Assembly (NCBI GenBank): GCA_947184155.2
Contig: CAMXCT020002756.1
Location: 1-64,000 of the forward strand
Source: Cladocopium goreaui
Lineage: Eukaryota; Sar; Dinophyceae; Suessiales; Symbiodiniaceae
DNA: 64,000 nt
Direction of reading: 5' to 3'
Position numbers and translations under genes: made by a program. Under the pieces are notes generated by a model that did not search any database, had not been told where the DNA came from, and saw only the letters and a program-made list of their open reading frames with translations. This document shows, piece after piece, positions 16,021 through 59,664 of this stretch. The first letter of the stretch is position 1. Each line of letters starts with the position of its first letter.

Positions 16021-16760
16021 GGGGTGGTGTGGCGAAGTCCTATTTCCATGTGACTCGAAACCAGCATCTATAAACATGTCATGAGGGCTATGTGCTTTGG
16101 GGCCCCCCAACCAAGGTGGTTTGCCATCTCCTGAAAAAAGTATAAACGGGCGGACCTGGCAGGCGGCGAACGTTTCTGGGCTGGGACACGCACAGTATTA
16201 CAATATGATATAAGTTGGTTCTTTTTGGGTTTAGGGTCCTGACTCCTGACTGTGACTGGAATTGAAACTCTTATCTTAACACTCATACATCCATCTCTAT
16301 ATATTAACACTCATACATCCATCTCTATTTCATATCGCTATTCCTATCTCAATATAAAATATATCGATTTGTCTCTTTGTGGTAGCAGCCTGCCTATCCA
16401 TGCAATCCATCCCATCCCGGGGCCCTGACTCCATGCAAACCTAGCTGCACAGACCAACAACTATATGCGCAAAAGGAATCGGCAGCTTAGCTTTATTCAT
16501 CTTCGATGGAGTCTCAGCCCGTTCTGCTTGACGCACGCCGATGCACTGTGGTGAGACAGGATGCACTATGGTGAAACTGAATGTCTCAAGCAAAGATGCG
16601 TGCATCAGCAAGTCTCAGACAGTTCTGGTTGACTCATGCTGATGCACTTCATTTTCAAATTCAATTGACATCAGTGGCTACCGCGGTTGATCTTTATCTG
16701 GGCACCTCCACGAACACGACCTTAGGTCCAGCATCTCTGTGAACGCAGCAAGATCTTCCA
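16021..16760 (+). repeat. Long direct repeat, left copy
   Basis: This 740-bp segment recurs at 21571-22438. Shared words include GGGGTGGTGTGGCGAAGTCC, TCATGAGGGCT, GGGGCCCCCCAACCAAGGTG, GGCAGGCGGCGAACGTTTCT and GCAAGATCTTCCA at the end. It lacks about 75 bp present in the right copy after GACCAAC. The two copies bracket all the satellite arrays. I see no LTR signature (TG...CA ends, PBS, coding interior), so I call it a segmental or dispersed repeat. Confidence 0.8.
16600..16647 (-). other. Conserved-tip hairpin 1
   Basis: Tip T-CAGA-CAGT-TCTG-GTT. The outer arms GTGCATCAGCA / TGCTGATGCAC are perfect, and an inner AGTC/GACT pair is present. It is within the left long direct repeat. Confidence 0.75.
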
Positions 16761-17616
16761 CATTGCATCACAAGTGGTGTTGAAGATATCCCGACTACTG
16801 CCGGTTGGGATCCCAGTCTCGACGAACGTAAAACTATGCCTTTCATTAAAAGAGTCAACGACCTTTCAAGTCCTCTGCTCCATTCATCCGCGCGCCTGTA
16901 ATCACGGTCACATAGCTGACACCATCAGAGGACATAGGACATTCCTTGAAAAGACATAGGTCGCATTATGCAAAGAGGTTTGAGTGGAAGGGCAAAAAAT
17001 AGAAGGGTAAAATCCAACTACCATGCTAATAAATGGGCTAACGCCCAGGTGCCGCCGCCCCCCTTTTTGAGGCTTCGGAATCGCAGATGACTGAGAAAAT
17101 GTAAGAGTCATAACTTAAAACAGTATTTGGATATTTATCTAACTATAGACTATAGTGTTATGAGAATATTGCAGCTACAGGGCTTGTATGACAAAATATT
17201 TTTTAACCATTTGCTGCACCATTCTGGCAACCATTCTATTTACTATGCTGGAAGCACCCCTGTTCTTGTAACCGTTCTGTTTCCTATTCTGGAAGCATCT
17301 CTGTTCTCTTAAACATTCTGTTTCCTGTTCTGGAAACACCTCTGTTCTTTTAACCATTCTACTTCCTATTCTGGAAGCACCTCTCTTCTAATCATTTGAT
17401 GAATTTTTCTCAAGCCACCAGTCTTCCTGTAGCCATGCCACCTGCTATCCTGGAATCATATTTTTGATGGTCATCCTATCTGCGACCCTGAGGCCCTGAG
17501 GTAAACAAGTTTTCAAACTATCCCAGTCCCATGTCTTAGAAACACTCCACTGTAGTCAGTCATTCCTTCTGTCAAAGCTCAATAGAATGGGCGGCCAGAA
17601 AAAGACACCGCAAAAA

Positions 17617-18977
17617 TGCAATATTCGACCTGGCAAAGCGCTGGCAAAGGGCTAAAGCTGCACGGAGGGTTTTAGGGCCCTGGTGGAACGTGCTTCGCGC
17701 AGGTTTTGAAACCCTCTAAATGCAGAATTTCGACCTGGCAAGGCAGCGGCAAAGGGCGAAAGGTGCACAGGAGGGTTTCGTGTCCTAGTGAAACGTGCCT
17801 GGCGCAGGTGTGGAAACCGTCTAAATGCAATATTCGACCTGGCAAAGCGCTGGCAAAGGGCTACAAGCTGCACGGAGGGTTTTGGGGCCCTCATGGAACG
17901 TGCTTCGCACAGGTTTTGAAACCCTCTAAATGCAGTGTTTCGACTTGGCAAAGCAGGGCAAAGGGCGATGGCAAAGCGCTGGCAAGGGGCTAAAGCTGCA
18001 CGGAAGGGTTTGGGGCCCTGGTGGAAGGTGCTTCGCGCAGGCTTTGAAACCCTCTCTAAATGCAGAATTTCGACCTGGCAAGGCAGGGGCAAAGGGTGAA
18101 AGGTGCACAGGAGGGTTTCCTGTCCTAGTGAAACGTGCCTCCTAGGGGTGGAAACCGTCTAAATGCAATATTCGACCTGGCAAAGCGCTGGCAAAGGGCT
18201 AAAGCTGCACGGAGGGTTTTGGGGCCCTGGTGGAACGTGCTTCGCGCAGGTTTTGAAACCCTCTAAATGCAGTATTTCGACCTGGCAAGGCAAGGGCAAA
18301 GGGCGATGGCAAAGCGCTGCGGAAGGGTTTGGGGCCCTGGTGGAACGTGCTTCGCGCAGGTTTTGAAATCCTCTAAATGCAGAATTTCGACTTGGCAAGG
18401 CAGGGGCAAAGGGCGAAAGGTGCACAGGAGGGTTTCGTGTCCTAGTGAAACGTGCCTGGCGCAGGTGTGGAAACCCGTCTAAATGCAATATTCGACCTGG
18501 CAAAGCGCTGGCAAAGGGCTAAAGCTACACGGCGGGTTTAGGGGCCCTGGTGGAACGTGCTTCGCGCAGGTTTTGAAACCCTCAGAGTTTCGGGCCCTGG
18601 TGGAACGTGCTTCGCGCAGGTTTTGAAACTCTCTAAATTCTAAATGCAGAATTTCGACCTGGCAAGGCAGGGGCAAAGGGCGAAAGGTGCACAGGAGGGT
18701 TTCGTGTCCTAGTGAAACGTGCCTGGCGCAGGTGTGGAAACCGTCTAAATGCAATATTCGACCTGGCAAAGCGCTGGCAAAGGGCTAAAGCTGCACGGAG
18801 GGTTTTGGGGCCCTGGTGGAACGTGCTTCGCGCAGGTTTTGAAACCCTCTAAATGCAGTATTTCGACTTGGCAAGGCAAGGGCAAAGGGCGATGGCAAAG
18901 CGCTGGCAAGGGCTAAAGCTGCACGGAAGGGTTTGGGGCCCTGGTGGAACGTGCTTCGCGCAGGTTTTGAAACCCTC
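17617..18977 (+). repeat. Satellite with A/B/C monomers of about 105-130 bp
   Basis: Twelve related monomers start near 17617, 17721, 17825, 17930, 18060, 18164, 18267, 18377, 18483, 18643, 18747 and 18855. Type A starts TGCAATATTCGACCTGG. Type B starts TGCAGAATTTCGACCTGG and carries CACAGGAGGGTTTC. Type C starts TGCAGTATTTCGACTTGG and includes an extra GGGCGATGGCAAAGCGC. The order is A B A C B A C B A B A C, a partial higher-order A-C-B unit. All share GAAACC-TCTAAA at the end. Minus-strand frames over it are long but are repeat products. Confidence 0.88.
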
Positions 18978-19033
18978 TTCATAAAAAGGGTTTTTTAAGC
19001 GTTGGAGGTTTGTTTTAAGGGTTGAACGGTTTA

Positions 19034-20420
19034 AGGGATGGGCAAACGGCAGGCTTGGAGCCTATAAGAAGGACATTGCTGTGTGCCTTGGAGGCCTGTT
19101 GGCCGCAGGATGAAGCATGCCAAGGTTCCCTTGTGTTTAAGGCCTGGCAAACGGCAGGCTTGGACCCCCCATGACGGGTTGTAAGGGTTTTAAGGGTTTT
19201 AAGCGTTTAAGGGCTGGCAAACGGCAGGCTTGGACGCCCATAAGAAGACATTGATGTGTGGCCTTGGAGTGCCTGTTGGCTGCAGGATGAAGCATGCCAA
19301 GGTTCCCTTGTGTTTAAGGCCTGGCAAACGGCAGGCTTGGACCCCCCATGACGGGTTGCAAGGGTTTTTAAGGGTTTTAAGCGTTTGGAGGGTTTTTAAG
19401 CGTTTAAGGGCTGGCAAACGGCAGGCTTGGACGCCCATAAGAAGACATTGATGTGTGGCCTTGGGGTGCCTGTTAGCTGCAGGATGAAGCATGCCAAGGT
19501 TCCCTTGTGTTTAAGGCCTGGCAAACGGCAGGCTTGGACCCCGCATGACGGGTTGTAAGGGTTTTAAGGGTTTTTTTGGCGTTTGGAGGGTTTTTAAGCG
19601 TTTAAGGGCTGGCAAACGGCAGGCTTGGACGCCCATAAGAAGACGTTTGTGGTGGCCTTGGGGTGCCTGTTGGCTGCAAGATGAAGCATGCCAAGGGAAT
19701 GTTTAAGGCCTGGCAAACGGCAGGCTGCGACGCCCATAAGAAGCCATTGATGTGTGGCCTTGCGGGCCTGGCAAACGGCAGGCTTGGACCCCCATGACGG
19801 TTGTAATAAGGGTAAGGGTTTTAAGCGTTTGGATGGTTTTTAAGGGTTTGAAGCGTTTAAGGGCTGGCAAACGGCAGGCTTGGACGCCTATAAGAAGACA
19901 TTGATGTGTGGCCTTGGAGTGCCTGTTGGCCGCAGGATGAAGCATGCCAAGGTTCCCTTGTGTTTAAGGCCTGGCAAACGGCAGGCTTGGACCCCCCATG
20001 ACGGGCTGTAAGGGTTTTAAGGGTTTTAAGCGTTTGGAGGGTTTTTAAGCGTTGTTAAGGGCTGGCAAACGGCAGGCTTGGACGCCCATAAGAAGACATT
20101 GATGTGTGGCCTTGGAGTGCCTGTTGGCTGCAGGATGAAGCATGCCAAGGTTCCCTTGTGTTTAAGGCCTGGCAAACGGCAGGCTTGGACCCCCCATGAC
20201 GGGTTGTAAGGGTTTTAAGGGTTTTAAGCGTTTGGAGGGTTTTTAAGCGTTTAAGGGCTGGCAAACGGCAGGCTTGGACGCCCATAAGAAGACATTGATG
20301 TGTGGCCTTGGGGTGCCTGTTGGCTGCAGGATGCAGCATGGCAAACGGCAGGCTTGGACCCCAGGACGTGGCAAAGGGCAGGCTTGGACGCTAAGGGAAT
20401 GTGTCGCCTTGCGGTGCCAA
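19034..20420 (+). repeat. Satellite of about 197-bp units with GGGTTTTAAG spacer
   Basis: Units begin GGGCTGGCAAACGGCAGGCT at 19211, 19408, 19606, 19861, 20059 and 20255 (spacings 197, 198, 255, 198, 196), with an earlier diverged start at 19034. The 255 gap holds an extra half-unit. Each unit contains the core GGCAAACGGCAGGCTTGGAC twice, a GAAGCATGCCAAGGTTCCCT block, and a spacer of repeated AAGGGTTTT that resembles, but is not, a telomere repeat. No gene. Confidence 0.88.
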
Positions 20421-20589
20421 GGGAATGTTTAAGCGATGGCTTTTAAGGGCTGGCAAGTGGCCTTGGAAAGCTAAGAAGGAGAAGTTCCACACCTGCGGTG
20501 GTCCCAGGCGCCGCCCCTGCCTTGGCCAAGGCCGGGGTCGGTGGATATGAACAGGTACTACCACTGCCTCGATCTGCCAAATTCGTATC

Positions 20590-20700: not shown

Positions 20701-20714
20701 TGTATTTGTACCAT

Positions 20715-20744
20715 GTATTGCTCAGACAGTTCTGGTTGCAATAC
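20715..20744 (-). other. Conserved-tip hairpin 2
   Basis: Tip T-CAGA-CAGT-TCTG-GTT, closed by GTATTGC / GCAATAC (7 bp, perfect). Confidence 0.75.
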
Positions 20745-21570
20745 AAGAATCAAAGTTAAACATCAAGTAACTAAGCTGCTCACAAAGGTGTTGAGTCAGG
20801 AAAAGAACCGACCTGGCCCCCCGCCAGGGTGGGGGAACCATCCTATCCCCTCAAAGTATTATAGGAGCAGGCCATAATTATATACCTATTATCAAAGTCT
20901 GAAGCTAAGGCCTAAGGCTATTAATCTAAATATTGTAAAGATCTAAGATGACGGCTCGATGATGTGCACCTCATCACAATACGTGACCAAGTGTGTAATG
21001 TCATGGCGAGCCTAACTAATACTTTTGTCAGTCCCGATATTGTCCTGCAAAAGCTTGAAGCGATCACTGCTTGCAGCAGCTGAACCAAAGCGTGCACGGC
21101 GACAACCTGGTCGTCCATCGTGCTCTGGACAGCCGCGATGGGAGTCAGAGGAAACAATCTTCTCTCGCAGACAGATAGCCAGTCACACGTCTCGTGCATG
21201 TAGATGTTGAGTTTTGACCTCGTCAACCATCAATTTGAAACCACTCGATCAAGACCAAAAAAGGTCAATGGACCATCTCAAAGGGGATCACTTTGAAGAA
21301 GCAACAGAAAATAATTTTTGCTTTTCTTTACTTAGAAACGTCCGTCCGTCCAGAGAGAGGCCTATCTGCCCACAACAAGAGATCTGGGGGGAACCAGGGT
21401 TACTGGCACTGCAGGCCAAAGGTTATCATAGATTCAATTGGGAGGAAGTGACAATAGATGTACCATGGCTGATGGCAAGACCATGGTACACCATCACTTC
21501 CATTGAAAGTCATAAGACCTGAGGAGGAGCCTGGACACGTATACCTTTTATTGTGTGTGCATGTGTCGAT

Positions 21571-22438
21571 GGGGTGGTGTGGCGAAGTCCCATTTCCATG
21601 CGAACCGGAAAAAAAAGGAAATGATGTGACTCGAAACCACCATGTATAAACATGTCATGAGGGCTGTGTGCGTTGGGGCCCCCCAACCAAGGTGGTTTGC
21701 CATCTCCCCAAAAAAAGTATAAACGGGCGGACCTGGCAGGCGGCGAACGTTTCTGGGCTGGGACAAGCACAATATTACAACTTTATTATTTAATGGGATG
21801 GCCCTTGTGCTCCTTTCCATGTTCTTTTTGGGTTTAGGGTCCTGACTCGTGACTGTGACTGGAATTGAAACTCTTATCTTAACACTCATACATCCATCTC
21901 TATATATTAACAGTCATACATCCATCTTTATATCATATCTCTATCTCTATCTCAATATATAATATATCGATTTGTCTCTTTGTGGTAGCAGCCTATCCAG
22001 GTAATCCATCCCGTCCCGGGGCCCTGACTCGATGCAAACCTAGCTGCACAGACCAACGATGCGGACCTGCAAAGCATTCAAGGACTATGACGAATGACTG
22101 TGACAGATCACATTCAGTGATGTCCCGGCACAACTATATGCGCAAAAGGAATCGGCAGCTTTATTCATCTTCGATGGAGTCTCAGCCCGTTCTGCTTGAC
22201 TCACGCCGATGCACTATGGTGAGACAGGATGCACTATGGTGAAACTGAATGTCTCAAGCAAAGATGCGTGCATCAGCAAGTCTCAGACAGTTCTGGTTGA
22301 CTCATGCTGATGCACTTCATTTTCAAATTCAATTGACATCAGTGGCTACCGCGGTCGATCTTTATCTGGGCACCTCCACGGACACGACCTTAGTTCCAGC
22401 CTCTCTGTAAACGCAGCAAGATCTTCCAGCCAGTCAGC
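21571..22438 (+). repeat. Long direct repeat, right copy
   Basis: This is the counterpart of 16021-16760, 868 bp long. It keeps the block after GACCAAC (GATGCGGACCTGCAAAGCAT and on) that the left copy has lost. A diverged third relative of its second half lies at about 23440-23825. Confidence 0.8.
22268..22315 (-). other. Conserved-tip hairpin 3
   Basis: Same arms and tip as hairpin 1 (GTGCATCAGCA / TGCTGATGCAC), because it lies in the duplicated segment. Confidence 0.75.
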
Positions 22439-23178: not shown

Positions 23179-23680
23179 TCAAATCAACTGAATTTGTTTG
23201 AAACGACGTATATTGCAATCTCCCCGCAGCTGCAAAGCAATCGGCAGCCATGCGTGACTTGATGTTAGTACAGCTACAACATTTTGGGGACCTCAGTTGA
23301 TTGCTAGAACTTTTCCAATATGGACTTGCATTCTTGCAATCTTTACTCGAAGACCCGGCTTTTCGATAGTGCAGTCCACATGTGAGCAAGAATCTGCAGC
23401 TTCATGATGTCACATAGGCAAGCGTGAGGATGAGCAATGCCATCCTCTCCCGGGGCCCTGGCCTGATGAAGACCGAGCTGCGTAGAAGAACCGAAGCCCT
23501 GCCAAGCATTCAAGGACCAAGACTGGCGACTGTGACAGATTACATTGAGTGATGCTTTCTTATTTGCATAAGACCTCCATGCACATTCTCATGGTTTTCT
23601 GCACAGATACTTTCCACTTTGTGCGAAAACTAAAGCAATGAGCAACTTTTTGTCATGATGAAGTTGGGTGTAGCTGCCAA

Positions 23681-23710
23681 AGTCTCAGACAGTTCTGTTT
23701 GACTTCTGCC
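23681..23710 (-). other. Conserved-tip hairpin 4 (weak)
   Basis: Tip T-CAGA-CAGT-TCTG-TTT, closed only by AGTC/GACT. It may be a decayed copy. Confidence 0.45.
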
Positions 23711-23743: not shown

Positions 23744-23789
23744 TGCATCAGCAAGTCTCAGACAGTTCTGGTTGACTCATGCTGATGCA
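23744..23789 (-). other. Conserved-tip hairpin 5, 97 nt past the phosphatase stop
   Basis: Arms TGCATCAGCA / TGCTGATGCA with the canonical tip. On the minus strand it lies 97 nt beyond the stop codon of the gene ending at 23886. Confidence 0.75.
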
Positions 23790-23885: not shown

Positions 23886-24572
23886 TCAGAGCGCTGTTGA
23901 CAATGCATCCAAAACATATTCTCGATGGCGCCATGGGCGAAGAGACGGCCTCTTTGTGAGCAACAGCTTGATCGCATCCTCCGCGCTGTAGTCATAGGCC
24001 ACAATAAGCCAAGCACACAAAATCGCGGCGCTGCGATTGATCCCACCAAAGCAATGAAACAAAATGTGCATGGGCTTGTCTTCGTGGACGGCAATGATTG
24101 ACTGTTGCCACAGTTGGAGGCATATGCTTTTCCAGCTGGAGAGGCATTTCCTTTGCAATGCTTCGTGCCGTTCCAAGTCGCGGCCCGGCTGCTTCAATGT
24201 GATGTCATCCAACTGACAATGAATATGAACTACATCGTGCTCATTGAAATAATCTTTCCAATTCGATGGAGCTCCATGTGATTGCATCTCAGTCTCACAC
24301 ATGGAAACAACCACTGTTACAGAGACACCAAGATCTTCTTTGATGACATCCAAGTTGCAAGCGGCTTGCAAGCTGCCAAGCAGCACACTTGCCCTTTCTG
24401 TAGGCTTGCAAACAAGGCAACCATCCACAGGCCACGCAGCTATGGATGAGAAGCTGTAAGTGTGTTGGTAGATGATTTCGTCCAAGGCCGTCCATGAAGC
24501 AGTATCATTGTACGCATCCTGGATGTCCTTTTGCCTGGCTTGCGACCACTTCAGCATCACACGTTGCGCCAT
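23886..24572 (-). CDS. Dual-specificity/tyrosine phosphatase-like protein
   Basis: From the ATG at 24572 this is 228 residues. Around residues 172-181 it reads FHCFGGINRSA, the Cys-x5-Arg active-site loop (C174, R180) followed by Ser, as in dual-specificity and other Cys-based phosphatases. The preceding SVTVVVSMCETE (84-95) and HDVVHIHCQLDD (112-123) fit the family's central strands; D122 or D123 is a candidate general acid. The helix after the loop (AAILCAWLIVAYDYSAEDAI) also fits. The exon begins at an AG|G acceptor (TTCTCAG|GTAGGC) just upstream of this ATG, so an upstream exon is possible. Phosphatase activity is inferred from motifs only; the substrate is unknown. A conserved-tip hairpin follows the stop. 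Confidence 0.7.
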   Translation of the reverse strand: MAQRVMLKWSQARQKDIQDAYNDTASWTALDEIIYQHTYSFSSIAAWPVDGCLVCKPTERASVLLGSLQAACNLDVIKEDLGVSVTVVVSMCETEMQSHGAPSNWKDYFNEHDVVHIHCQLDDITLKQPGRDLERHEALQRKCLSSWKSICLQLWQQSIIAVHEDKPMHILFHCFGGINRSAAILCAWLIVAYDYSAEDAIKLLLTKRPSLRPWRHREYVLDALSTAL

Positions 24573-24738
24573 GGATGAGCCTACCTGAGAACACTGATGT
24601 CTTTTACCTGAGAAGAAAAAAGCTGCCACATCGTACATTCAAGCTGTGGAGTGAAGCACCTGGAAGCGACAACACAAAGCTCTTCAAGCAGGCAAATCTT
24701 TTTGGCAACTCAGGCACGAAACACAGATTTGCTTTCAT

Positions 24739-24775
24739 GCATGGAAACTCAGACAGTTCTGGTTGCTTCACATGC
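24739..24775 (-). other. Conserved-tip hairpin 6
   Basis: Canonical tip T-CAGA-CAGT-TCTG-GTT. Arms GCATG-GAA and TTC-A-CATGC pair with small bulges. It lies between the 24940 gene and the phosphatase gene. Confidence 0.65.
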
Positions 24776-24829: not shown

Positions 24830-24869
24830 CGCTTGTGAAGCTCAGACAGATCTGGTTGCTTCACGTGCG
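24830..24869 (-). other. Conserved-tip hairpin 7, 71 nt past a stop
   Basis: Tip T-CAGA-CAGA-TCTG-GTT. Arms GTGAAGC / GCTTCAC, 7 bp perfect, continuing outward with CGC/GCG. It lies 71 nt beyond the stop at 24940 on the sense strand. A diverged, poorly paired relative lies at 24809. Confidence 0.7.
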
Positions 24870-24939: not shown

Positions 24940-25821
24940 TCAGGCATTGTTCCACTTGCCCGCTTTCACTTTGGCAGGCGTTTCTACAATGAGATCAGAA
25001 GCAGGTCGTTTTTGGGTGGTGCTCATTTGCAGTCCACAGATGCCACGTCGCTCTGCTTCCACTGCGTCCATCTGCTCATCAGTGGCCAGCTTGAAGATCT
25101 TCTCAGCGATCACAGTCATGTTGGCACCTTGATCGTCGGCGGAAACTTTTCCCACCAACAGATGCACTTTGTGATCTGCCATGTTGAAATGGTGCGTTTG
25201 TTCCAGTTGGCAGAAAGCTTCAACAGAGAATGGTTTGGGATTTTTTGCTGCCACAGCGATGACCTTGGTGTGCTGCATCATGAAGACTTCATCATCTCCA
25301 GTGCCCGATTTCTTGATGGTTGGCTCCTCATCGTCCGCGCGAACGAGCATACTGATGTACCCAGGGAAAATGGGTGCATCTTGCAATTTCACACCAAAGC
25401 CTGAAAAGAGCAGATCTTCATATGGACAAGCAATGGGATAAACCATACCAACGGCTCTCTGGTTCTCCAAGCGCAGGATCTTGCGTACCATCGGCCGGCT
25501 CTGGTCATTGTATTCTTTGTACAACGCCGGCTGTGCAGCTACGACTTGAAACTGACATTCTGGCAATTGCACAGTTGCTGTTTCACTCTCTTGCGTCTGC
25601 AACACACCGGCAGCGGCTGCAGGCACATTGGATCGTGAAATGCCCGCTTTGCGGTTGTTTGTCGCTAGCCTCACGTCCACTGGCTGCTTGAAACAAATTC
25701 CTGCTGGACCACGTTTCTGTAAGAGTGTGAGAAGTTGCTCCTTGGAAGCTACAGCCGCCAGAGCTTGAAGATTCTGTTCGTCGACCAGAATTCTTTCAAT
25801 CTCTCCAGTGTGATCTGCTAC
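24940..25821 (-). CDS. Hypothetical protein, last exon of 293 codons
   Basis: The frame opens at an AG|G acceptor (CTCTCTAG|GTAGCAG, exon start 25821, phase 0) with an in-frame TAG just before it, and runs to a stop at 24940. It begins VADHTGEIERILVDEQNLQA, then ASKEQLLTLLQKRGPAG, suggesting a small helical N-terminal domain. The middle reads PALYKEYNDQSRPMVRKILR and VGMVYPIACPYEDLLFSGFG, and the end reads KRPASDLIVETPAKVKAGKW, a basic tail. I recognise no family. The upstream exon or exons with the true start were not found. It sits head-to-tail with the phosphatase gene on the same strand, with two conserved-tip hairpins in between. Confidence 0.55.
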   Translation of the reverse strand, partial: VADHTGEIERILVDEQNLQALAAVASKEQLLTLLQKRGPAGICFKQPVDVRLATNNRKAGISRSNVPAAAAGVLQTQESETATVQLPECQFQVVAAQPALYKEYNDQSRPMVRKILRLENQRAVGMVYPIACPYEDLLFSGFGVKLQDAPIFPGYISMLVRADDEEPTIKKSGTGDDEVFMMQHTKVIAVAAKNPKPFSVEAFCQLEQTHHFNMADHKVHLLVGKVSADDQGANMTVIAEKIFKLATDEQMDAVEAERRGICGLQMSTTQKRPASDLIVETPAKVKAGKWNNA

Positions 25822-44250: not shown

Positions 44251-44294
44251 CTACAGAAGTATTGCTCAGACAGCTCTGGTTGCAATACAAGTAG
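44251..44294 (-). other. Conserved-tip hairpin 8
   Basis: Tip T-CAGA-CAGC-TCTG-GTT. Arms GTATTGC / GCAATAC, with CTAC/GTAG further out. Confidence 0.75.
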
Positions 44295-44329
44295 CACGTT
44301 TGAAATCAAATGGCGTTTGGACAACAGGA

Positions 44330-44361
44330 GGCTTCGCTCAGACAGTTCTGGTTGCAATGCC
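44330..44361 (-). other. Conserved-tip hairpin 9, 76 nt past a stop
   Basis: Canonical tip. Arms GGCTTCGC / GCAATGCC pair at 6 of 8. It lies 76 nt beyond the stop of the gene ending at 44437. A decayed relative lies near 44190-44233. Confidence 0.65.
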
Positions 44362-44436
44362 AACTGTGTGTCCTCCGTTGCAAATTTGCGCCGCTGCTGA
44401 ACTGGCGACATGCATTTTCAGTCAACGTTCTTTTCG

Positions 44437-45027: not shown

Positions 45028-45229
45028 GGCGAAGGTGAGTCTGAGCTTTTATCTGAGCTGAGATGGTGCCTGTCTTCTTCTGATAAGAACATTCCTCCAA
45101 AAATACATGGCCAAGCAGCTTTTATCAGATGGTGTGCGGTTTCTGGGAGCAAAAAATAGTGGCTGAAACTCAGACTACAATACCAAAATAATCTATATGA
45201 CTTTGTTGCACATGTTTCCGAAGTGTCAT

Positions 45230-49361: not shown

Positions 49362-49381
49362 TAGGGGGGGAACGTGGAATA

Positions 49382-49695: not shown

Positions 49696-49716
49696 CCATC
49701 CAACACCCACCCTGGG

Positions 49717-49959: not shown

Positions 49960-50276
49960 ATCTTCTCCGACAACCTACAGTTCAAAGACTCAAGTCTGAT
50001 AGTGTCAAAGTAAACTGTTTGTCACTAAGAAGAACACGCATTCTTGGGCATCACGCATTGTTCCTTCCACAGCCTGTTTGCGAATGAAAATCAAGTACAA
50101 ACAATACTTTTACAGCACCATTTCTGAAAAGAATAAACCAACAGACACTACCAATTGCAATCTTTTTTCTACGCTGCTGTTGCATTCTGAGAAAGTTCTG
50201 TTTGCAGAAGATTGCAATCAGTAGATTACAAGCTGCACGTTTGAAATTAAATGGCATTTGGACAACAGGAGGCTAC

Positions 50277-50314
50277 AGTGGCATCGCTCAGACAGTTCTG
50301 GTTGCAATGCCAAC
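50277..50314 (-). other. Conserved-tip hairpin 10
   Basis: Canonical tip. Arms GGCATCGC / GCAATGCC; the single non-pair (C against A) becomes G-U if transcribed from the minus strand. AGT/ACT pairs further out. A decayed relative lies near 50180-50215. Confidence 0.72.
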
Positions 50315-50370: not shown

Positions 50371-50413
50371 ACAGTGGTATTGCTCAGACAGTTCTGGTTG
50401 CAATGCCAGCTGT
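50371..50413 (-). other. Conserved-tip hairpin 11, 18 nt past the kinase-gene stop
   Basis: Canonical tip. Arms ACAGT-GGTATTGC and GCAATGCC-A-G-CTGT pair over about 13 bp with one bulge. It lies 18 nt beyond the stop at 50431. Confidence 0.75.
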
Positions 50414-50430: not shown

Positions 50431-52755
50431 TTACGCCGCAGCTGAACTTGCGGGAGACATTTTTAGCCTCTCTGTGGTAAGCCACGATGAAATCCACTGC
50501 CATCGCACATGCAGAATTGCGATGGCCGTCGCTGCCAGATGGTCAATTTCTGTGTCAGACATCTCAAATTCATAAAAACACAATGTGGTACGCCAAGACA
50601 TCTTCTCGATCTCTGCATCCGCCGTTTCATTCTTTCCAGCTCTGGGACGCAACCACTTCTTCAATGCTTCAATGGCACCTAGGATCTTGTCTGCTTGCAA
50701 ACCATATTTGCAATGGTCACCATCTTCATCACCTTGGTGAAACCATCCAGCGTCAACGTAGCGAAGCAATCCAAGCACACGATCTGAAGTAGCGAAGTTA
50801 AAGGCACCTTCAACTGAGCGCTCCCAACACTTGTGCTCAGCACGCTGCCTTTCTATCTGGCCGATGTGTTGAAGGGGCAGCATGTTGTGCACCAGTCGCA
50901 GCAAATCTTGCACCACTCGAAACACATGAGGCTCCCGATTGACTTCAGGAATTTGCGCGCTGCGACGTGATCTTCTTGATCTCTTCCCTCTGTTCATTTC
51001 ATATGGCAGCATGTCCTGCGAGCTTTCACGCTGCTCGTAGGTCAGCCCCAAAGGACGATCTGGCCTTTCTGGTCGTGCAAAAAAACCACGCTGCCCCGGC
51101 ACCACCCGAAACTGCTGCTTCAAGTCCTGGAGACTCTGCTTCATCATGGAGTCTTGCCACTGACCCAAATTCAAGCCACACAAGATAGCTCCGACCCCTT
51201 CACGACACACTTCACCCCATGAGTCTTCGGCAATTCTGTGCCAAAAAATCGTGGCAATGTGTCCACTTGGATGCAGACAGTTTGTAATCTCAAAAACTTC
51301 AGACGAAGAATTCTGCGATGCTGCCGCCAAGTTTGCACCATGTCTTTTGCAGATGCCAATAGTTTCTTCTCCACGCAACATCAACAACTTCTTTGGTGCA
51401 GCCAAGATAAACAAATGCCATTGATCAGAAGCATCGTCTTTAGGACTGCATTTCACAAGCACTTCCACTTCAGATGAGAGATCAGTTCGTGTCAGTTTGC
51501 ATACCAACAAACTGGACACTTCTAAGAGCTGCGGACAAATTGTCGTGCCCCATTGATTGATTTCCAGAGGTGCCACTGGCGACGCAGCTGCTGCACCATG
51601 CACTTTGGATGCAGATTTTGGGTGAAAGGATACGGGAAGCTCGCCTCCTTGTCCCCTGTCTCAGGCTTCACTTGTTCGAGCTGTGTTTCCAGGTCTTGCA
51701 AATAAGACGGACTCGGCGATGGAAACCTCCGCGCAAGTTGCCAAGACTCTTTTTGGAAGATATACCATCAGAATGCTAAGTAAAGATGTCAAGATGACAT
51801 GATGTGAGAAGTAACTATCAACAGGCGAAGATGAAATGTCTAACCATATTATGCAATACCAAGTGCTACCAAGACACCTCCAGCGTGCAGTGCCCATTTC
51901 GCCAGTCACCAAAGCATCACGTATCAAAGTTTGCACTTTTTCATACGGAGTTTGCCAGCCATGGGCGATCGCATCGCTTCGGTGGGGCTGCATCAGGTTG
52001 CTGTCTTGGTTGATCATGGTCTGCAAAATCCTTTTGAAAGAGCCTCCAACATTTGGATAGTCTGTCATGTCTCGCAGTCCATCCAGATCGCAAAATACCC
52101 AGACTGGAGCTGAATGTGGCTCCCTTGCTTCTGCCAGGCCGACATTATCAATCTTGGCATCCCAAGGTAATACATCCTGATGCACGAACCGGAACAGAAG
52201 ACGCAAAATCTCGACCTGCATCTGAACATAGGATTCCCATGCCTGAGGCGTGCATTGCATTGTCGTGAAGAATGATGTCAATTTCGATTTGCCGGTGAAG
52301 ATCAACTTCTCTGCAAGCAGGATAGATGCGTCACCTTCTACCATTGAAGAATTTCCTTCAAAAAAATCACCCTCTCTCACACTGGTCTTCTCCAAGAAGA
52401 TTTGCCCGAAACAATACATCATTTCTTTCTCCACGACGGATTTGTACTTGTCAAATCTATGCTGCTCTGCTCCCCACTCAGCCTTGGTTTTCCCATCTGT
52501 CATCATCTTAACTACAAAATTGTAGTTGTCAAGCATGAACACATCTTTGAAGGCGCCGCTACCACAGCGAGAAACATTGTCTCGGATCGTGATATCTCCC
52601 TTCTTTCGCGTCGTATCCTGGAGGACCAAAACAACGGTAGCATTGCTAATCTTCTCTACATGCTTCTTTTTTCCAGTTTTGATCCATTCCTTCGCAGTAA
52701 CCTGCAGCTGCCCTTTCACCAGCTTGAAGTCTTTATATGTAGCCACAGTGGACAT
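50431..52755 (-). CDS. Protein-kinase-like protein with novel C-terminal half, 700 aa
   Basis: Two exons join with matching phase. Exon 1 is 52755-51878 (ATG start MSTVATYKDFKLV, donor TGGAG|GTGTCTT, phase 2). Exon 2 is 51655-50431 (acceptor GAGACAG|GGGACAAGG). Exon 1 looks like a divergent protein kinase fold: glycine loop CGSGAFKDVF (residues 64-73), VVKMM with the candidate Lys at 83, a long insert, a catalytic-loop-like HQDVLPWDAKIDNVGL (192-207) where D194 and N204 fit HxD...N, and CDLDGL (222-227) in place of DFG. Exon 2 (about 408 aa) has no family I recognise: VLVKCSPKDDASDQWHLFIL, a basic patch NRGKRSRRSRRSAQIPEVNR, then FRVVQDLLRLVHNMLPLQHI. The unspliced frame through the intron gives a hydrophobic run that I regard as an artefact. 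A conserved-tip hairpin follows the stop and another lies upstream. Confidence 0.65.
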
Positions 52756-52875: not shown

Positions 52876-52945
52876 TCACACGTGCCTGAACGGTACCCGC
52901 CTCTCAGACAGTTCCGGTTAAGACAGGTTGCTCCAGCACGTGTGA
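52876..52945 (-). other. Conserved-tip hairpin 12, upstream of the kinase gene
   Basis: Tip T-CAGA-CAGT-TCCG-GTT (A/C, that is G-U on the minus strand). The outer arms TCACACGTGC / GCACGTGTGA are a perfect 10 bp but set further out, with an unpaired inner part. Confidence 0.65.
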
Positions 52946-53381
52946 CAATGTAGATGTATGACACGTATGGCAGAAATTGAAATTACAACTGCAGCTTGAG
53001 CTAAAACAATGATAGACCTCATTATTGAAAAGCTTGAGCCGGGATCAAGACAAATAGCTCTTGATGCCTTCAACAACTGCAAATGTTCATGCTGCCACAG
53101 CCACGATCCATGAGCCAACTGTGCACCGTTTTTTCCAGACGCCAACAGGCGCACAGAAGAAGCAAAACACCACAGACGTTTCCAAGCCTTTGATATCTTT
53201 GGAGCTGCAGCACCAGAGTGGCTTATGCCTTGGACATTCACAAGAGTAGCTGCGCCTTGTTGACATAAGTAAGGCAATCAATCATGGCAGCAGCCCAATG
53301 TGCGTATACGTCTGGACGTTTTCCGCGCAGGTTCTGCGCATGCATAGGTGAAACGATCTGAGACCTAAGTCCGCAACAGAT

Positions 53382-53415
53382 GCGGCACGCTCACACAGCT
53401 CTGGTTGCATGCCGC
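53382..53415 (-). other. Conserved-tip hairpin 13
   Basis: Tip T-CACA-CAGC-TCTG-GTT (inner stem weakened by one change). Arms GCGGCACGC / GCATGCCGC, 8 of 9 with the ninth G-U on the minus strand. Confidence 0.65.
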
Positions 53416-53508
53416 TGTTGCTCTGAGAGATACCTGCCACCTTTCAATGCGAAAGTATACCCATCTTCACACAGGCAGGATAAATATCTCTGAAACATAA
53501 TTCCCAAA

Positions 53509-53552
53509 CAGTAGCAACACGCTCAGACAGCTCTGGTTGCATGCTACTACTG
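53509..53552 (-). other. Conserved-tip hairpin 14, 15 nt past a stop
   Basis: Tip T-CAGA-CAGC-TCTG-GTT. Arms CAGTAGCAACACGC / GCATGCTACTACTG form 14 consecutive pairs on the minus strand if three G-U or U-G wobbles are allowed; on the plus strand those three are A-C mismatches. It lies 15 nt beyond the stop at 53567. Confidence 0.75.
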
Positions 53553-53566
53553 CTTGGACGTGAAAG

Positions 53567-54454
53567 TTACAAGTTGCAAGATGACAACCAGTCCTCAATC
53601 TGACTTGGAATCTGGCGAGTCATTTTCCCATCTTCATCTGTCTGTGCCCATTGCCTCACACCCTTCAAAGATGACGTGCAATTCAAATCAAAATTTGCTA
53701 ACGAGCGATAATATTTCAAACACTGCAAGCAATGAGCTTGCCCGGCATAAAGATATTCATATTCCTCTTGTCTTTCTGGCGTCATCTTTCGTTTCTTTTT
53801 GTGCTTGGTATCAAGTTCTGGACAATGAGGTGCAGCACTGCATTGCTCCAATTTCTCATAAGCTTGTATGGAACTTGCTGAGTCACTTTGGACGCTTGAT
53901 TCTGAATTGCATCTCGCAGCGTGGGTTCTTTTCCCAGGAGCCTGTGACGGTGCATGTGGCAGCTTTGACCAAAAAGTAGGTTTTCCACTGCTGCTGGCAT
54001 CTGCGTCATTACATAATGCTCGCCACCCTTCCAGATCTCTTGCAATCATGTTCAAACGTGTTGCATATCGTGCAGAAGCATTGACGGCTATGTCCTCTAT
54101 TTTTCGTTCAGCTTCGAAAAGAGAAACATCTTGAGGAGACACCTGTTTTGCCCCAAGCAGCATGAGGAGGTATAGAAACTTTGAGAGAAAAAGACAAGCG
54201 CTTTCATGTTCTTCCACATGCAACCAATCTGCATACTCCAGCATTAGGTCCTGCAATTCCCGCAAGTTTTCTTCCACGAGAACATGTCCACGATTTTGAG
54301 ACCATTGGATCAGACGCTGAGCGGCTTCTTCCACCTCTGGGAGTGTTGCATGCTCAATGTCAGACTTAACATTCAATTCCCGCAGCAATGCCTGGAATTT
54401 CAACTTTTGAACCTCTGCCAAAGTATCTTTGTGCTGTTGCAACATTGCCTCCAT
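53567..54454 (-). CDS. Helical protein with C-terminal QAHCLxC domain
   Basis: ATG at 54454 (MEAMLQQHKDTLAEVQKLKF), about 295 residues in one exon. The first half is helical (EVEEAAQRLIQWSQNRGHVL, ACLFLSKFLYLLMLLGAKQV). The middle is Ser-rich and likely disordered. A basic DTKHKKKRKMTPERQ precedes a C-terminal domain reading EYEYLYAGQAHCLQCLKYYR, then NCTSSLKGVRQWAQ and QIPSQIEDWLSSCNL. The same domain closes the J-domain protein at 55418 (EYMFLYSAQAHCLTCMEFYS ... VSCGKTARQWA ... IPLDVEAWLQAHDL). There the second Cys pair is complete; here it is C-T-S-S. The start region is duplicated just upstream. Function unknown. Confidence 0.55.
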   Translation of the reverse strand: MEAMLQQHKDTLAEVQKLKFQALLRELNVKSDIEHATLPEVEEAAQRLIQWSQNRGHVLVEENLRELQDLMLEYADWLHVEEHESACLFLSKFLYLLMLLGAKQVSPQDVSLFEAERKIEDIAVNASARYATRLNMIARDLEGWRALCNDADASSSGKPTFWSKLPHAPSQAPGKRTHAARCNSESSVQSDSASSIQAYEKLEQCSAAPHCPELDTKHKKKRKMTPERQEEYEYLYAGQAHCLQCLKYYRSLANFDLNCTSSLKGVRQWAQTDEDGKMTRQIPSQIEDWLSSCNL

Positions 54455-54560
54455 GGCTGCATCCAAGCAAGGTTCTAGTTACCACTGACGCTCTACTACG
54501 CTGTCTTTTTGCTGTTCCAACATTGCGTCCATGGCTGCATCCAAACAAGCTTCTAGTTAC
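54455..54560 (-). repeat. Duplicated start-codon region
   Basis: The segment spanning the ATG of the 53567 gene (words CCATGGCTGCATCCAA and TTCTAGTTACCA) occurs twice about 90 bp apart. The outer copy would encode a similar first eleven residues, then diverge to a stop. Confidence 0.6.
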
Positions 54561-56023: not shown

Positions 56024-56138
56024 GGCCAAGGCCACAGACGAATTTCAAGTAAGCAACTTTCAATCAGTTTCGGTTAAGGAAGCAGCAACGTCTCAAAACC
56101 TACTTGTATGTCCTGTGCTAATTTGAAAGCATGCACCA

Positions 56139-56162
56139 CCCTTCGGACAGTTCCGGTTAGGG
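56139..56162 (-). other. Conserved-tip hairpin 15
   Basis: Tip T-CGGA-CAGT-TCCG-GTT (the inner stem changed at both sides relative to CAGA/TCTG). Arms CCCT / AGGG. Confidence 0.68.
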
Positions 56163-56470
56163 CAGCCACAATGTGACAACATATGGTGACATGTAAGCGA
56201 ATTTTGAATTCAAATATGATGTCTATCAGTTTGCAATTGAGCAGCAGTGGGAAGCGGCTGGAAAAGACTCATCGCCATATGATAACTTCTGCTCATGATG
56301 GCACAAACACTTATGCAAGGCAACCTTATCGGACCGCGCCTTTTTCCAGACAACCAACAGCTCTAGATGTCGCTTGTGCATGAAATGTCCAACAGTTCCG
56401 TAGCACCAACAATAAACAAATAAAGATATGCGAGGCTACTTTCACCAATTTTGTCTGCCAGACAAGCGAC

Positions 56471-56508
56471 TGCAATCTTGCTCAGACAGTTCTGGTTGCA
56501 AAATTGCA
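56471..56508 (-). other. Conserved-tip hairpin 16, 124 nt past a stop
   Basis: Canonical tip. Arms TGCAATCTTGC / GCAAAATTGCA: 10 of 11 pairs, the last G-U on the minus strand. It lies 124 nt beyond the stop at 56632. Confidence 0.75.
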
Positions 56509-56631: not shown

Positions 56632-57235
56632 TTAAATGATGCCCTGACATTCAGCATCAATAGTGTACAAAAGCGTCCCATCCGGCGCCCGCCCCTCAGC
56701 TTCCAAGGGACCAAAGTACTGATACCATCCATCGCCGATGGCTCTCAGCTTCTCCAGCACCTGAAGACGCGCAAACAAACAGTTACCGAACATGCCATGG
56801 ATGCATTTATTTCGAACAGATTTCTCTTTACCGAACATGCCAAATGGGCGATGCCATGCGTAGTAAATGTGACCTTGTGAGCTCCGATCTCCTTGATGTG
56901 CCCTCCTTTAAGATCAGTGTCGCGGCAGCGATGGATGGCCTGCATTTGTGGCTCAAATGGATGCGTTTGAAATGCAAACAAAGAATTGAGATTCCAGCTC
57001 AAATCAAAATGTGGCAAAGAAAGACCACCCGTGTCCGGGCCTCTAAAGCAGTACTTTTCAGACCCCATCGATCTTTCCAGTGTGGCTGCACTGCCTGATG
57101 TTCCATAAAGATTTTCTGGGCATCAGAAGGTGTCAGGCCAACATACACTGTCAGCGTGGTGCCCGCCATGCTACTTCCTTGCAGCAATGTTGTCGATCTA
57201 CAGGCCAGAACCACAAAAGCTTCAGAACTTACCAT
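56632..57235 (-). CDS. Three-exon paralogue 1, unknown family
   Basis: Exon 1 runs from an ATG at 57235 (or 57169) to about 57025 and holds MAGTTLTVYVGLTPSDAQKI and HWKDRWGLKSTALEA, ending at an apparent GC donor (AGAG|GCCCGG). Exon 2 is 56939 to about 56850: AIHRCRDTDLKGGHIKEIGA then HKVTFTTHGIAHL. Exon 3 is 56760-56632: VLEKLRAIGDGWYQYFGPLE, then EGRAPDGTLLYTIDAE, TAA. The gene at 57505-58422 has the same three exons and the same motifs. The conserved parts (MAGTTL-x2-YVGLT, RWGLK-x-T, GDGW-x2-[YF], DGTLLY) suggest a small folded protein under constraint, but I know no family. The first-exon donor position is the same in both copies. Confidence 0.6.
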
Positions 57236-57389
57236 TCTGAAACTGATAGCTTCAACTGCGCAAGCTTGACACAGGCTAGAAAAACCATAGCTCTCGGGCC
57301 TGTCCAAACCAGCTTTTTTCTTCTCTTTCTAACTATTTTCTACAATCTTTGGTGTGAGACAATCATTCAAAAGGAAAACAATCTGGTTT

Positions 57390-57422
57390 GGGTGATTCTC
57401 GGACAGTTCCGGTTGAATCCCC
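57390..57422 (-). other. Conserved-tip hairpin 17
   Basis: Tip T-CGGA-CAGT-TCCG-GTT. Arms GGGTGATTC / GAATCCCCC, 8 of 9. Confidence 0.7.
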
Positions 57423-57454
57423 CTCCCCGGAACCCGCTCACAAAAATCTGGTTT

Positions 57455-57488
57455 GGATGATTCTCGGACAGTTCCGGTTGAATCTTCC
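57455..57488 (-). other. Conserved-tip hairpin 18, 17 nt past a stop
   Basis: Tip T-CGGA-CAGT-TCCG-GTT. Arms GGATGATTC / GAATCTTCC, 8 of 9. It lies 17 nt beyond the stop at 57505. With hairpin 17 it forms a tandem pair sharing ATCTGGTTTGG upstream. Confidence 0.72.
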
Positions 57489-57504
57489 TCCCAGAGTCCG
57501 CTCA

Positions 57505-58422
57505 CTAAGTTGTCATGGCAGCGCCATCACGGCTGACAACATACAGCAACGTCCCGTCGGACGCAAACTTCTCCGCCTCTAAGTTCTTGTAGAAGCGAAA
57601 CCAGCCATCGCCAAGTCCTTCCAAATTGCCGTTGACCTCAAGTAATGCCACGCACCAATAATATATATATAGATATTATATATATATATTTATACATCTA
57701 GAATATTCATATATAATATATACTCATGTTATAGAACTTACAAAAGAAAGCAATGCCTTCCGTGGTGAAAGTCACCGTGTGGGCCCGCACGGATTCCGCA
57801 TCCACAGCCTGCCCCTCTGACTCCACGCAACGCCGAATTGCCTGGACCAACACGGCAAGAGAGCAAAAGGGCAGGACAGTAAAAAGGAAAGAGAGAAGAT
57901 GCGAAGACAGGATGATGCGAAGATGAGCAGATGTGCACAAATGAGATGAAGAGGTGAGGATGTGAAGCTGTGAGGAGGTGAAGATGTGAAGATGATCAAA
58001 TGTGCAGAGGAGCAGATGTGAAGATGGAAGATGTGAGGGTATGAAGATGTCAGGATGTCAAGATGCAAAGCTGAGAAACTGTGAAGATGATAGAAGATGA
58101 TAGTAGATGACAAAATAAGCACATGTGCAGAAATAGCGATGGCTGACAGAATCCAACTATTTGACTAACAAGTCGCTCAAATGTTTTCAGGATCAAACAA
58201 AAATATTTCTGTGAACTTCAAAACATATTCCTAAACAGCCTCTTCCACTGTTGGCTTCAAACCCCAGCGCTGCTTGTATTTTGGCTGGACAGGAAGACGT
58301 TGCTGGAACAACCGATCTGCCGCCGCAGCTGTGAGACCAACGTAGGTGAGCAAAGTAGTGCCCGCCATGCGTCCCGGGGCAGCAACAACAAAAGAAAAAG
58401 ATGTTGGAGCCAAACTGAACAT
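57505..58422 (-). CDS. Three-exon paralogue 2, unknown family
   Basis: Exon 1 runs from the ATG at 58422 (MFSLAPTSFSFVVAAPGRMA) or the inner ATG at 58368 to about 58241: MAGTTLLTYVGLTAAAADRL, then PVQPKYKQRWGLKPTVEE, at a GC-donor-like GAGAG|GCTG position. Exon 2 is 57841-57742: AIRRCVESEGQAVDAESVRA then HTVTFTTEGIAFF, with a good GTAAGT donor. Exon 3 is 57636-57505: VNGNLEGLGDGWFRFYKNLE, then KFASDGTLLYVVSRDG, TAG. It is head-to-tail with paralogue 1. A roughly 400-bp first intron holds a degenerate GATGTGAAGATG tract. The hydrophobic start of the long form could be a targeting signal, but the inner ATG lines up with paralogue 1. Confidence 0.6.
57880..58140 (+). repeat. Degenerate GATGTGAAGATG tract (intronic)
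   Basis: Diverged copies of GATGTGAAGATG/GATGAGCAGATG fill intron 1 of paralogue 2. On the minus strand it is a pyrimidine-rich CATCTTCACATC tract. Non-coding. Confidence 0.6.
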
Positions 58423-58822
58423 GTTCAGAACTTGCTGCAGACATGCTTGTGTCCAACTTGCTAAAAAGACAACCTCAAGTTCCTAGCAAATCAACGGTTC
58501 GGTCCTTCACAGAATGCAATGATGTTGTCCCATTCCAGAACCTGGCATCCAATGAACAACGGCTAGGTGCACATGGAACCAGTGAAGTTTGAATTTGATA
58601 CACATGGACCACTTGAAACAGAGACTACATGTCTGACTGTTGCTATTCACATGCAAATACCAGCATTTGGAAATGTCCAAGCAAATTACAGTCACTTCAG
58701 AATAGCCGATTCCAAAAACAAATGGCCAACCAATGACATCTAACCTTGACCTCGCGGTTCTGCACAACCTTGCATCAAATGAAAGTCAAATGGAACAGAT
58801 TGATTTCATGATTTGTCCATGA

Positions 58823-59040: not shown

Positions 59041-59202
59041 CCAGATCCATCAATACACCATCCAAATGTGTATGAGAACTCGAATCAACGTAGACATTTG
59101 TCCCCTGGAAGAAAGAGTTCCAATCCAAACACGAATTTAAAACACAATCATGAATTTGAAACACAACCTGCCAGCGAATGCAAATCAAGCGGACAACAAT
59201 GC

Positions 59203-59520
59203 ATTCACGGCAGCAAATCCAAGGCAGGAATGCCGAAACAGATGTGCTACAGATGGCCAAGCTGACCAGTCATGAAGTGCAATCACTGCCTGCGATCACT
59301 TTGTCAACAAACAATCACACAAACGTCAAAACCAACCATCCATATCTGTTGAGACGTTGATTCACGGCAGCAAATCAAAGGCAGGAATGCCGAAACAGAT
59401 GTGCTAAAGATGGCCAAGCTGACCATGCAGTCATGAAGTGCAATCACTGCCTGCGATCACTTTGTCAACAAACAATCACACAAACGTCAAAACCAACCAT
59501 CCATATCTGTTGAGACGTTG
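59203..59520 (+). repeat. 157-bp tandem duplication
   Basis: Copies 59203-59359 and 59360-59520 share ATTCACGGCAGCAAATC, GGCAGGAATGCCGAAACAGA and CATCCATATCTGTTGAGACG, with small differences. No coding signal. Confidence 0.82.
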
Positions 59521-59635
59521 AGACAATGAGACACTCTATCTTTTTGTCTGCTAATCGCATGGTTGGCACCACTCCGTGTCCTTGCCGTCATGTTCTCTCT
59601 GTCATACAAAATCTTACACATAGTATTCTTTTATT

Positions 59636-59664
59636 GCTGGCCACTCGGACATTTCCGGCTGCAG
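59636..59664 (-). other. Conserved-tip hairpin 19 (weak arms)
   Basis: Tip T-CGGA-CATT-TCCG-GCT keeps the inner stem. The outer arms GCTG...CAGC pair only partly. Confidence 0.45.

Follow-up and report, generated by a model that had tools for sequence, protein, structure and literature searches.

Why should a small hairpin with a constant tip and ever-changing arms recur behind the genes of a one-way gene row in a dinoflagellate genome? The question is raised by a 64,000-nt stretch (the window) of Cladocopium goreaui, part of contig CAMXCT020002756.1 (C2756) in an assembly of 1.166 Gb. A reading made from the sequence alone had described a family of such hairpins there and offered three guesses about them: a protein-binding hairpin of the 3' untranslated region (3'-UTR), a signal in gene rows for mRNA 3' ends or trans-splicing boundaries, or a hairpin-type mobile unit. 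The copies are taken here as a new RNA hairpin family of a familiar sort, in an unusual setting. Our preferred reading, held tentatively and with slightly less than even confidence, is that they may be cis-acting 3'-UTR hairpins whose tip would be bound by a protein with a regulatory effect on the messages of the co-oriented row.

Structure, covariation and folded strand

With up to two mismatches allowed, the window contains 19 matches to the core TCRGACAGTTCYGGTT (13 exact, four with one mismatch, two with two), against 0.10 expected from shuffled sequence. All 19 lie on the plus strand, so that both the number of about 19 and the single orientation given by the sequence-only reading stand. 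Read on the minus strand the core is AAC-CRGA-NCUG-UCYG-A, with NCUG as the loop (AAUG in one copy), a closing C-G pair in 15 of 17 distinct rows, and beyond it an outer helix whose length varies with the copy, from 7 pairs to more than 20. Six tandem pairs, spaced by 65-132 nt, account for 12 of the 19 copies, and decayed additional copies are also present. A covariance model of the kind that had been proposed, trained on 18 of the 19 copies, recovers exactly the same 19, all on the minus strand, at 35.1-47.7 bits; the next-best scores in the window are 17.7 bits (plus strand, 4262) and 15.7 bits (a decayed copy, 22172). Among the 18 aligned copies, 9 of 36 columns are invariant, five more are at least 90% conserved, and nothing is common beyond about 18 nt. 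A fifth inner pair was considered and rejected, as it pairs in one of nine cases.

Covariation gives the firmest support to the view that the folded tip is probably kept by selection. The arms had been said to differ between copies and nevertheless to pair, and in 17 copies (two with identical arms were dropped) 122 of 136 outer-arm positions are paired, that is 7.2 of 8 per copy compared with 4.3 of 8 with foreign arms. When 3' arms were swapped between copies, none of 20,000 permutations reached 122 (best 101); the weakest pairing is that of the copy at 24749 (5/8). Nine of 12 pairs are altered on both sides, but shuffles average 7.0 and 12 of 500 are equally high, so that this count alone is a weak measure. 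Cells changed on both sides and still paired number 51, against 17.6 in shuffles (0/500 as high) and at most 23 in slid registers; for nine hairpins with different arms the count is 28 against 10.9 and the score 0.782 against 0.262 (both 0/500), with at most 13 in slid registers. Covariation, on which the sequence-only reading had staked its own proposal, is thus significant. One part of that proposal needs narrowing: the inner four-pair stem covaries at pair 15-24 only (A-U in 12, G-C in four and G-U in one of 17 distinct rows), the remaining three pairs being almost invariant.

The same picture holds outside the window. We fetched 34 stretches by their exact core, covering 99 of the 339 exact copies in the genome, and added the window to give 35 sources. 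These hold 189 copies at up to two mismatches, 92 of them distinct. When no more than one mismatch is allowed, 77 distinct copies remain, and their arms are of 11 types. With one hairpin for each type, 65 of 88 positions are paired, and none of 20,000 permutations is as high (best 63). It had been conceded that all copies might be recent duplicates with the same arms; some are, yet the 11 arm types show that this does not hold for the family. A related view, that the hairpins have no function of their own and are relics of duplicated sequence in which pairing survives, draws on the many copies that duplicate a few (two A-type hairpins are present 21 and 18 times) and on the decayed ones. We regard it as highly improbable, because in 9-11 arm types both partners have changed with pairing preserved and because the wobble is specific to one strand.

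That wobble identifies the minus strand as the folded one, as had been suggested. In the first eight pairs of the window copies there are 19 G-U pairs against three A-C pairs (G-U on the plus strand; p 0.0009), and the 77 distinct hairpins have 74 against 18 on the minus, or sense, strand. A single-stranded DNA hairpin would give an equal bias, so the bias shows the strand and not RNA as such.

Placement behind the genes of the row

Seven copies had been placed past minus-strand stop codons. The distances from stop to core are 113 nt (gene 23886), 83 (24940), 84 (44437), 32 (50431), 29 (53567), 26 (57505) and 135 (56632), a range of 26-135 nt that is consistent with the arm-end distances given earlier; the last two stops are confirmed, because the genes concerned, X1 and X2, are paralogues with matching last exons. 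In the paralogous locus C194 the corresponding distances are 29 nt (53567), 32 (50431), 84 (44437), 83 (24940), 79 (23886) and 48 (22596). Of the 13 clusters in the window, five follow the end of one of 10 long minus-strand frames at no more than 150 nt, which 20 of 20,000 rotations equal. The 35 sources contain 110 clusters, and 17 of these come 100 nt or less after a sense frame of at least 150 aa, with 5.5 expected and four antisense. Orientation relative to genes is therefore not random, and the excess at gene ends is real but modest.

Strand bias, position behind stops and tandem multiplicity all fit a 3'-UTR element, and a 3'-UTR placement is likely for several genes. The conserved structure with its covariation on the mRNA strand also agrees with the class of 3'-UTR cis-regulatory RNA hairpins. 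Of the position expected for that class, between stop codon and poly(A) site, the stop side is shown for seven window genes and one in C194, and sequence words for the poly(A) side point both ways. On this reading the hairpins would lie within the mature mRNA. The part that is read would be the tip, made up of the closing C-G pair, the asymmetric internal loop AAC/A, the four-pair stem CRGA/UCYG and the loop NCUG; the outer arms would merely support it, so that their sequence would be free as long as they pair over 7 to more than 20 bp. A constant apical motif on exchangeable arms is the arrangement expected if a protein reads the tip. Such a trans-acting RNA-binding protein would dock there, two or three tandem hairpins would raise its occupancy, and the outcome may be control of the stability, translation or localisation of the row's messages. 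The earlier description, of a selected structure in which a constant tip sits on interchangeable arms and which folds on the minus strand downstream of genes on that strand, is supported, and the protein-binding hairpin is the best of the three original guesses: structure and position speak for it, while the protein is our inference.

Sequence further downstream bears on where such messages would end. Dinoflagellate poly(A) sites are reported at AAAAG/C in passages of PMC2488372, and this word follows the last hairpin in all seven window gene tails at 34-137 nt (mean 81 nt, p 0.004), two of the seven being homologous and two carrying a further AAAAG/C just a few nt from the stop. Ten tails of gene 23886, fetched by core, were aligned. 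In all ten the stop is followed by two hairpins or more and then, behind the second hairpin, by an A-rich block, which holds AAAAAG in seven, AATAAAG in two and AAAAAAAAT in one; a TGCTSATTGCTTT-like sequence comes next. Three narrower words, AAAAAG, AATAAAAG and AATAAAGCTG, are enriched over 66 de-duplicated clusters (24 against 6.6 at random and 2 on the opposite side), an enrichment that is partly circular since they were picked after the alignment had been seen.

A separate observation concerns the A-type hairpins. In L018, L022, L024 and the window near 22164 (minus strand) they are followed by AATAAAG and then a CTGCYRATT-like sequence. A regular expression for this combination finds 24 blocks in 20 related sources, all on the hairpin strand, 22 of them within 172 nt behind a hairpin.

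Several results weigh against a 3'-UTR function. A long sense frame ends no more than 100 nt before the cluster in only 17 of the 110 cases (26 at up to 250 nt), and most of the other clusters lie in an amplified repeat with little open coding. There is no hairpin behind gene 55418 in either of two loci (window and C194), and none close behind the stop of 51661 in the window. Hairpins E and G are nearer to the start of the following gene, and C194 hairpins stand between DUF6570, Rep and helicase frames; placement in 3'-UTRs is therefore not universal. The word AAAAG/C is not enriched within 150 nt over the 66 clusters (33 against 25.9 at random and 32 on the opposite side). The arms taken alone are less divergent between loci than their surroundings in six of six comparisons, but at p<0.05 in only two of the six, and the choice of loci by exact core biases toward conserved tips and hides gene copies that have no hairpin.

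The same placement could also be explained by processing. An RNase III-like enzyme might read the tip, cut the stem and thereby define the mRNA 3' ends of the row, an alternative that we consider unlikely while giving it due weight. Successive genes of a one-way row are followed by hairpins, the closest cores stand 26-32 nt past the stop, and with the inner stem imposed the stem of hairpin E folds over 52868-52953 into about 25 outer pairs. According to passages of PMC4402537, transcripts of Mimivirus, Megavirus and Pithovirus follow a 'hairpin rule', ending at hairpins where they are cut (in Mimivirus by an RNase III-like enzyme) and polyadenylated. Those hairpins, like ours, have locus-specific arms and stand behind row genes; they lie at or near the transcript 3' end, where ours would lie too. 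The same passages describe them as unconserved in sequence, whereas here a tip of 16-18 nt is constant, tandems are frequent and the genome is an intron-bearing one of 1.17 Gb. The yeast enzyme Rnt1p, in passages of PMC4334505, favours certain loops on short stem-loops and so resembles our case in placing a particular loop on a freely variable stem. Its loops are mostly NGNN, a form absent from our hairpins (the comparison is with NGNN, and the paper also names minor AAGU/AHNN-type classes); here the loop is NCUG with an AAC/A internal loop, and several folded stems are short, with 7 outer pairs at 56143, 9 at 20722, 10 at 57399 and 11 at 56482. Moreover, two or three hairpins per tail would be redundant for cutting, and the A-rich block in gene 23886 tails lies further downstream.

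Copies between loci and the case for mobility

In the host genome the 339 exact cores (162 forward, 177 reverse) compare with four for a reversed-pattern control. The covariance model gives 92 matches in L018-L037 and 60 in L038-L051, L053 and L054. Apart from the loci that share the hairpin order of the row (below), most fetched loci match a repeat located at 15-17 and 20.5-22.4 kb of the window, and the copies that were fetched, 99 of the 339, appear to belong almost entirely to a single gene row that has been duplicated and to a repeat that stems from it, a statement supported less firmly. With 339 cores in 1.17 Gb, and the fetched ones mostly in copies of one row or repeat, the guess of an mRNA 3'-end or trans-splicing boundary signal finds no support if a general signal is meant. 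As for spliced-leader relics, the window has one match at three mismatches, with 3.65 expected by chance.

On the minus strand of the window the arm types follow each other as J, I, H, G, F, E, D, C, A, A2, A, B. C194 has the identical order from I to B, and parts of it recur in C58, C124, C26, C302 and C760. The row in C194 is compact, running X1, X2, 55418, 53567, 51661, 50431, 44437, 43388/42846 (an OB-fold match below cut-off), 24940, 23886, 22596. Tandem hairpins have been gained and lost: type I has two in the window and one in C194, type G one and two, and gene 50431 is followed by two in the window, two in L026, three in L048 and four in L032. X1 and X2 both have hairpins, but with different arms.

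We compared seven window gene tails with six paralogous, mutually related loci. Tips differ by 0-3.8%, arms by 1.2-9.5%, the remainder of the tails by 6.6-14.2% and coding sequence by 3.5-8.5%. Tips and arms together diverge less than the remainder in six of six comparisons (Fisher's test in three of the six loci: 6e-4 in C194, 2e-5 in L048, 2e-4 in L023). Purifying selection between loci is thereby suggested, though supported less firmly than by covariation, since the loci were fetched by core.

Could the hairpin instead be selfish, a mobile unit of 40-75 nt that is copied to new sites and retains its pairing because copying requires the folded strand, possibly with a Helitron link? We think this improbable, although some observations speak for the guess of a mobile unit. 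E-type hairpins have differing surroundings (window 52904, L025, L034, L036). D modules stand after three unrelated frames: modules that match each other in pieces (86-158 nt long, identity 80-88%) spread over about 330 nt lie behind genes 44437 and 50431, whose proteins have no BLAST match to each other, and a copy of 393 nt (97%) lies behind the helicase in C194. The varying number per tail and the Helitron-type genes nearby point the same way. Yet the 18 aligned copies share nothing past about 18 nt, and a transposed copy should bring its arms, which differ. The arms diverge less than their surroundings in all six loci. Hairpins also keep their place in ten aligned gene 23886 tails, where A and A2 are both present in 10 of 10 (tails ascertained by their cores).

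The Helitron-type genes deserve a closer look. Upstream of the C194 row, frames match DUF6570 (3e-17), Helitron_like_N (7e-13) and PIF1 (2e-4, below cut-off). Helitron-type helicase frames are present in the window (59997-63998), beside the row, and in L025; in C327 a helicase match lies about 6 kb from hairpins. The window helicase has 114 matches in the genome, 30 of them long and 27 of the long ones without internal stop. Hairpin J, whose core lies 337 nt behind the helicase frame in the window, is present behind both fetched 97% helicase copies (L053, L054). Between the window and C194 the helicase has a dS of 1.5, compared with 0.05-0.32 for the row genes; the two do not have a single common history, and the idea that the helicase has belonged to the row for as long as the other genes was rejected. 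A Helitron terminus carries one 3' hairpin per element with a CTRR end, near Rep and helicase genes. Our hairpins resemble it in having one orientation near such genes and differ in being many per row with different arms. A link of hairpins and row to Helitrons is thus suggestive. A bolder version, which we consider quite doubtful, would make the gene row the cargo of a large Helitron-linked element whose own hairpin code tags cargo 3' ends; an element or host factor reading the tip would then make or regulate message 3' ends without host signals, a nuclear counterpart of the giant-virus hairpin rule.

DNA recombination offers a further alternative, in which cassettes would end in a single-strand hairpin serving gain, loss and exchange, as in integrons. 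The wobble bias fits a single DNA strand equally well, unrelated genes have common 3' modules, and orientation is single in 34 of 35 sources, the exception being one of four copies in L041, which has two tip mismatches and unpaired arms. Gene content varies while hairpin modules stay, as in L021 and L023, which have no matches to 24940, 42846, 44437 and 50431. We nevertheless judge this very unlikely. The constant part of attC is the base of the hairpin, whereas here it is the tip; the only junction noticed, incidentally, is A joined to B in L050 and L051; and no integron-like integrase was found in the frames scanned.

Features of the window and known hairpins

The row genes look real, to judge from their substitution patterns. 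Values of dN/dS are below 1 in every comparison of at least 90 codons that yielded one (two yielded none), mostly 0.1-0.6; gene 51661 has 0.68-0.94 and four stops in C194, and one or two stops occur in four comparisons besides it. The introns of X1 and X2, read by eye, start with GC or GT and end with AG, with exon ends GAG|GC at GC-AG introns. Introns of the GC-AG kind, the single direction of the row and the size of the genome are in keeping with a dinoflagellate. Table 1 lists the features.

Table 1. Hairpins, decayed copies and genes in the window (bits are covariance-model scores; hairpin letters denote arm types).
Feature	Position	Strand	Evidence or remark
Decayed second hairpin, 16605 module	16510..16547	-	Core AAGCAGAACGGGCTGA; 84% over 38 nt to intact copy
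Hairpin A (GAGTC/GACTT)	16605..16640	-	43.4 bits
Hairpin, arm type B/D (GTATTGC/GCAATAC)	20712..20747	-	46.3 bits
Decayed second hairpin, 22273 module	22172..22207	-	15.7 bits
Hairpin A, duplicate of 16605	22273..22308	-	43.4 bits; A-type counterpart in C194 48 nt past a 178-aa open frame
Hairpin A2, second of pair behind 23886	23675..23710	-	40.0 bits
Hairpin A, first of pair behind 23886	23748..23783	-	43.4 bits
Gene 23886, dual-specificity phosphatase domain	23886..24638	-	PF00782 9.9e-11; dN/dS 0.29-0.60 vs 9 copies, one with 1 stop
Hairpin C, second of pair behind 24940	24739..24774	-	40.5 bits
Hairpin C, first of pair behind 24940	24832..24867	-	41.2 bits
Gene 24940	24940..25821	-	dN/dS 0.13-0.48 in 3 copies, one with 2 stops
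Decayed third tip, D module of 44437	44205..44224	-	85% over 20 nt to core
Hairpin D, second of pair behind 44437	44256..44291	-	44.7 bits
Hairpin D, first of pair behind 44437	44328..44363	-	45.3 bits
Gene 44437	44437..45048	-	dN/dS 0.29, 0.46 in 2 copies, one with 1 stop
Decayed third tip, D module of 50431	50187..50206	-	85% over 20 nt to core
Hairpin D, second of pair behind 50431	50278..50313	-	47.7 bits
Hairpin D, first of pair behind 50431	50374..50409	-	45.6 bits
Gene 50431	50431..51660	-	dN/dS 0.41-0.56 in 3 copies, one with 2 stops
Hairpin E, 648 nt behind 53567, close before 51661	52894..52929	-	38.4 bits
Hairpin F, second of pair behind 53567	53381..53416	-	42.5 bits
Hairpin F, first of pair behind 53567	53513..53548	-	42.0 bits
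Gene 53567, C-terminal part paralogous to 55418	53567..54478	-	dN/dS 0.42-0.59 in 3 copies
Hairpin G, between X2 (stop 56632) and 55418	56133..56168	-	38.9 bits
Hairpin H, behind X2 (stop 56632)	56472..56507	-	43.1 bits
Gene X2, tandem paralogue of X1	56632..57328	-	Sequence match to X1
Hairpin I, second of pair behind X1 (stop 57505)	57389..57424	-	47.3 bits
Hairpin I, first of pair behind X1	57454..57489	-	46.4 bits
Gene X1, GC- and GT-donor introns (by eye), tandem paralogue of X2	57505..58482	-	
Hairpin J, variant tip AGCCGGAAATGTCCGA	59635..59670	-	35.1 bits
PIF1/Helitron-type helicase frame	59997..61490	-	80% identical to C194 frame, which matches PIF1 at 2.3e-4, below the Pfam cut-off

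Other features accompany the row. The repeat with A and B hairpins (window 16053-17032 and 20545-22428) is found at many fetched loci, and in L019 the two hairpins alternate with a 209-bp period. Window 15055-15962 holds 57 copies of the 16-bp unit AGACGCTTTTACACAC, with related arrays in many fetched loci. Window 25820-42577 is missing from C194 and C760, where 24940 is directly joined to 42846, and represents a 16.8-kb insertion or set of insertions. A plus-strand block at 45870-49960, with a phage-integrase match below cut-off (E 0.025) and direct repeats of 79 and 244 bp nearby, is presumably a retroelement of the tyrosine-recombinase kind; nothing in C194 matches the window from 45491 to 50115.

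Among protein-read mRNA hairpins, the iron-responsive element and the histone stem-loop have a constant apical motif with a bulge or internal loop and lie in an untranslated region. The architecture is similar here and the motif different, and no Rfam 15 family reaches its gathering score in the whole window (none at E up to 5 in 53300-53600). H/ACA snoRNA and microRNA precursors were dropped, the tip being their variable part. Amoebophrya introners, described in PMC7789003, are hairpin-forming repeats too and likewise belong to a genome of the dinoflagellate line; they form introns within genes and have terminal inverted repeats as well as direct repeats. Here, unlike in introners, the constant part is the tip, and none of the 19 copies lies inside an open reading frame of at least 150 aa, though such frames make up 31% of the window. 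No hairpin match falls within the introns of X1 or X2; the C194 hairpins between Rep-type frames may be in an intron position.

Viral contigs held eight stretches with the exact 17-nt core, all rejected (free folds without the hairpin; 13-22 bits against 35-48 in the window), and a looser double-core match there was a phage tandem repeat that folds without the hairpin. Prokaryotic genome contigs gave no double-core match and none for a 20-nt core. In the literature, exact core strings turned up in papers unrelated by title, and no such element was found in open-licence papers, a collection that reaches few subscription papers and no preprints. In PMC11453091, a dinoflagellate genomics review from 2024, a term search found no words that start with 'hairpin', 'stem-loop' or 'UTR'.

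The review PMC12787238 presents post-transcriptional control as the main level of gene regulation in dinoflagellates, and the passages of it that were searched name no structured mRNA target like these hairpins. Between loci the 3' tails of the row, its hairpin numbers and its gene content differ while the tip remains fixed. A defined tip of 16-18 nt, hundreds of copies and natural decayed variants would together make a ready bait or reporter for finding a post-transcriptional factor.

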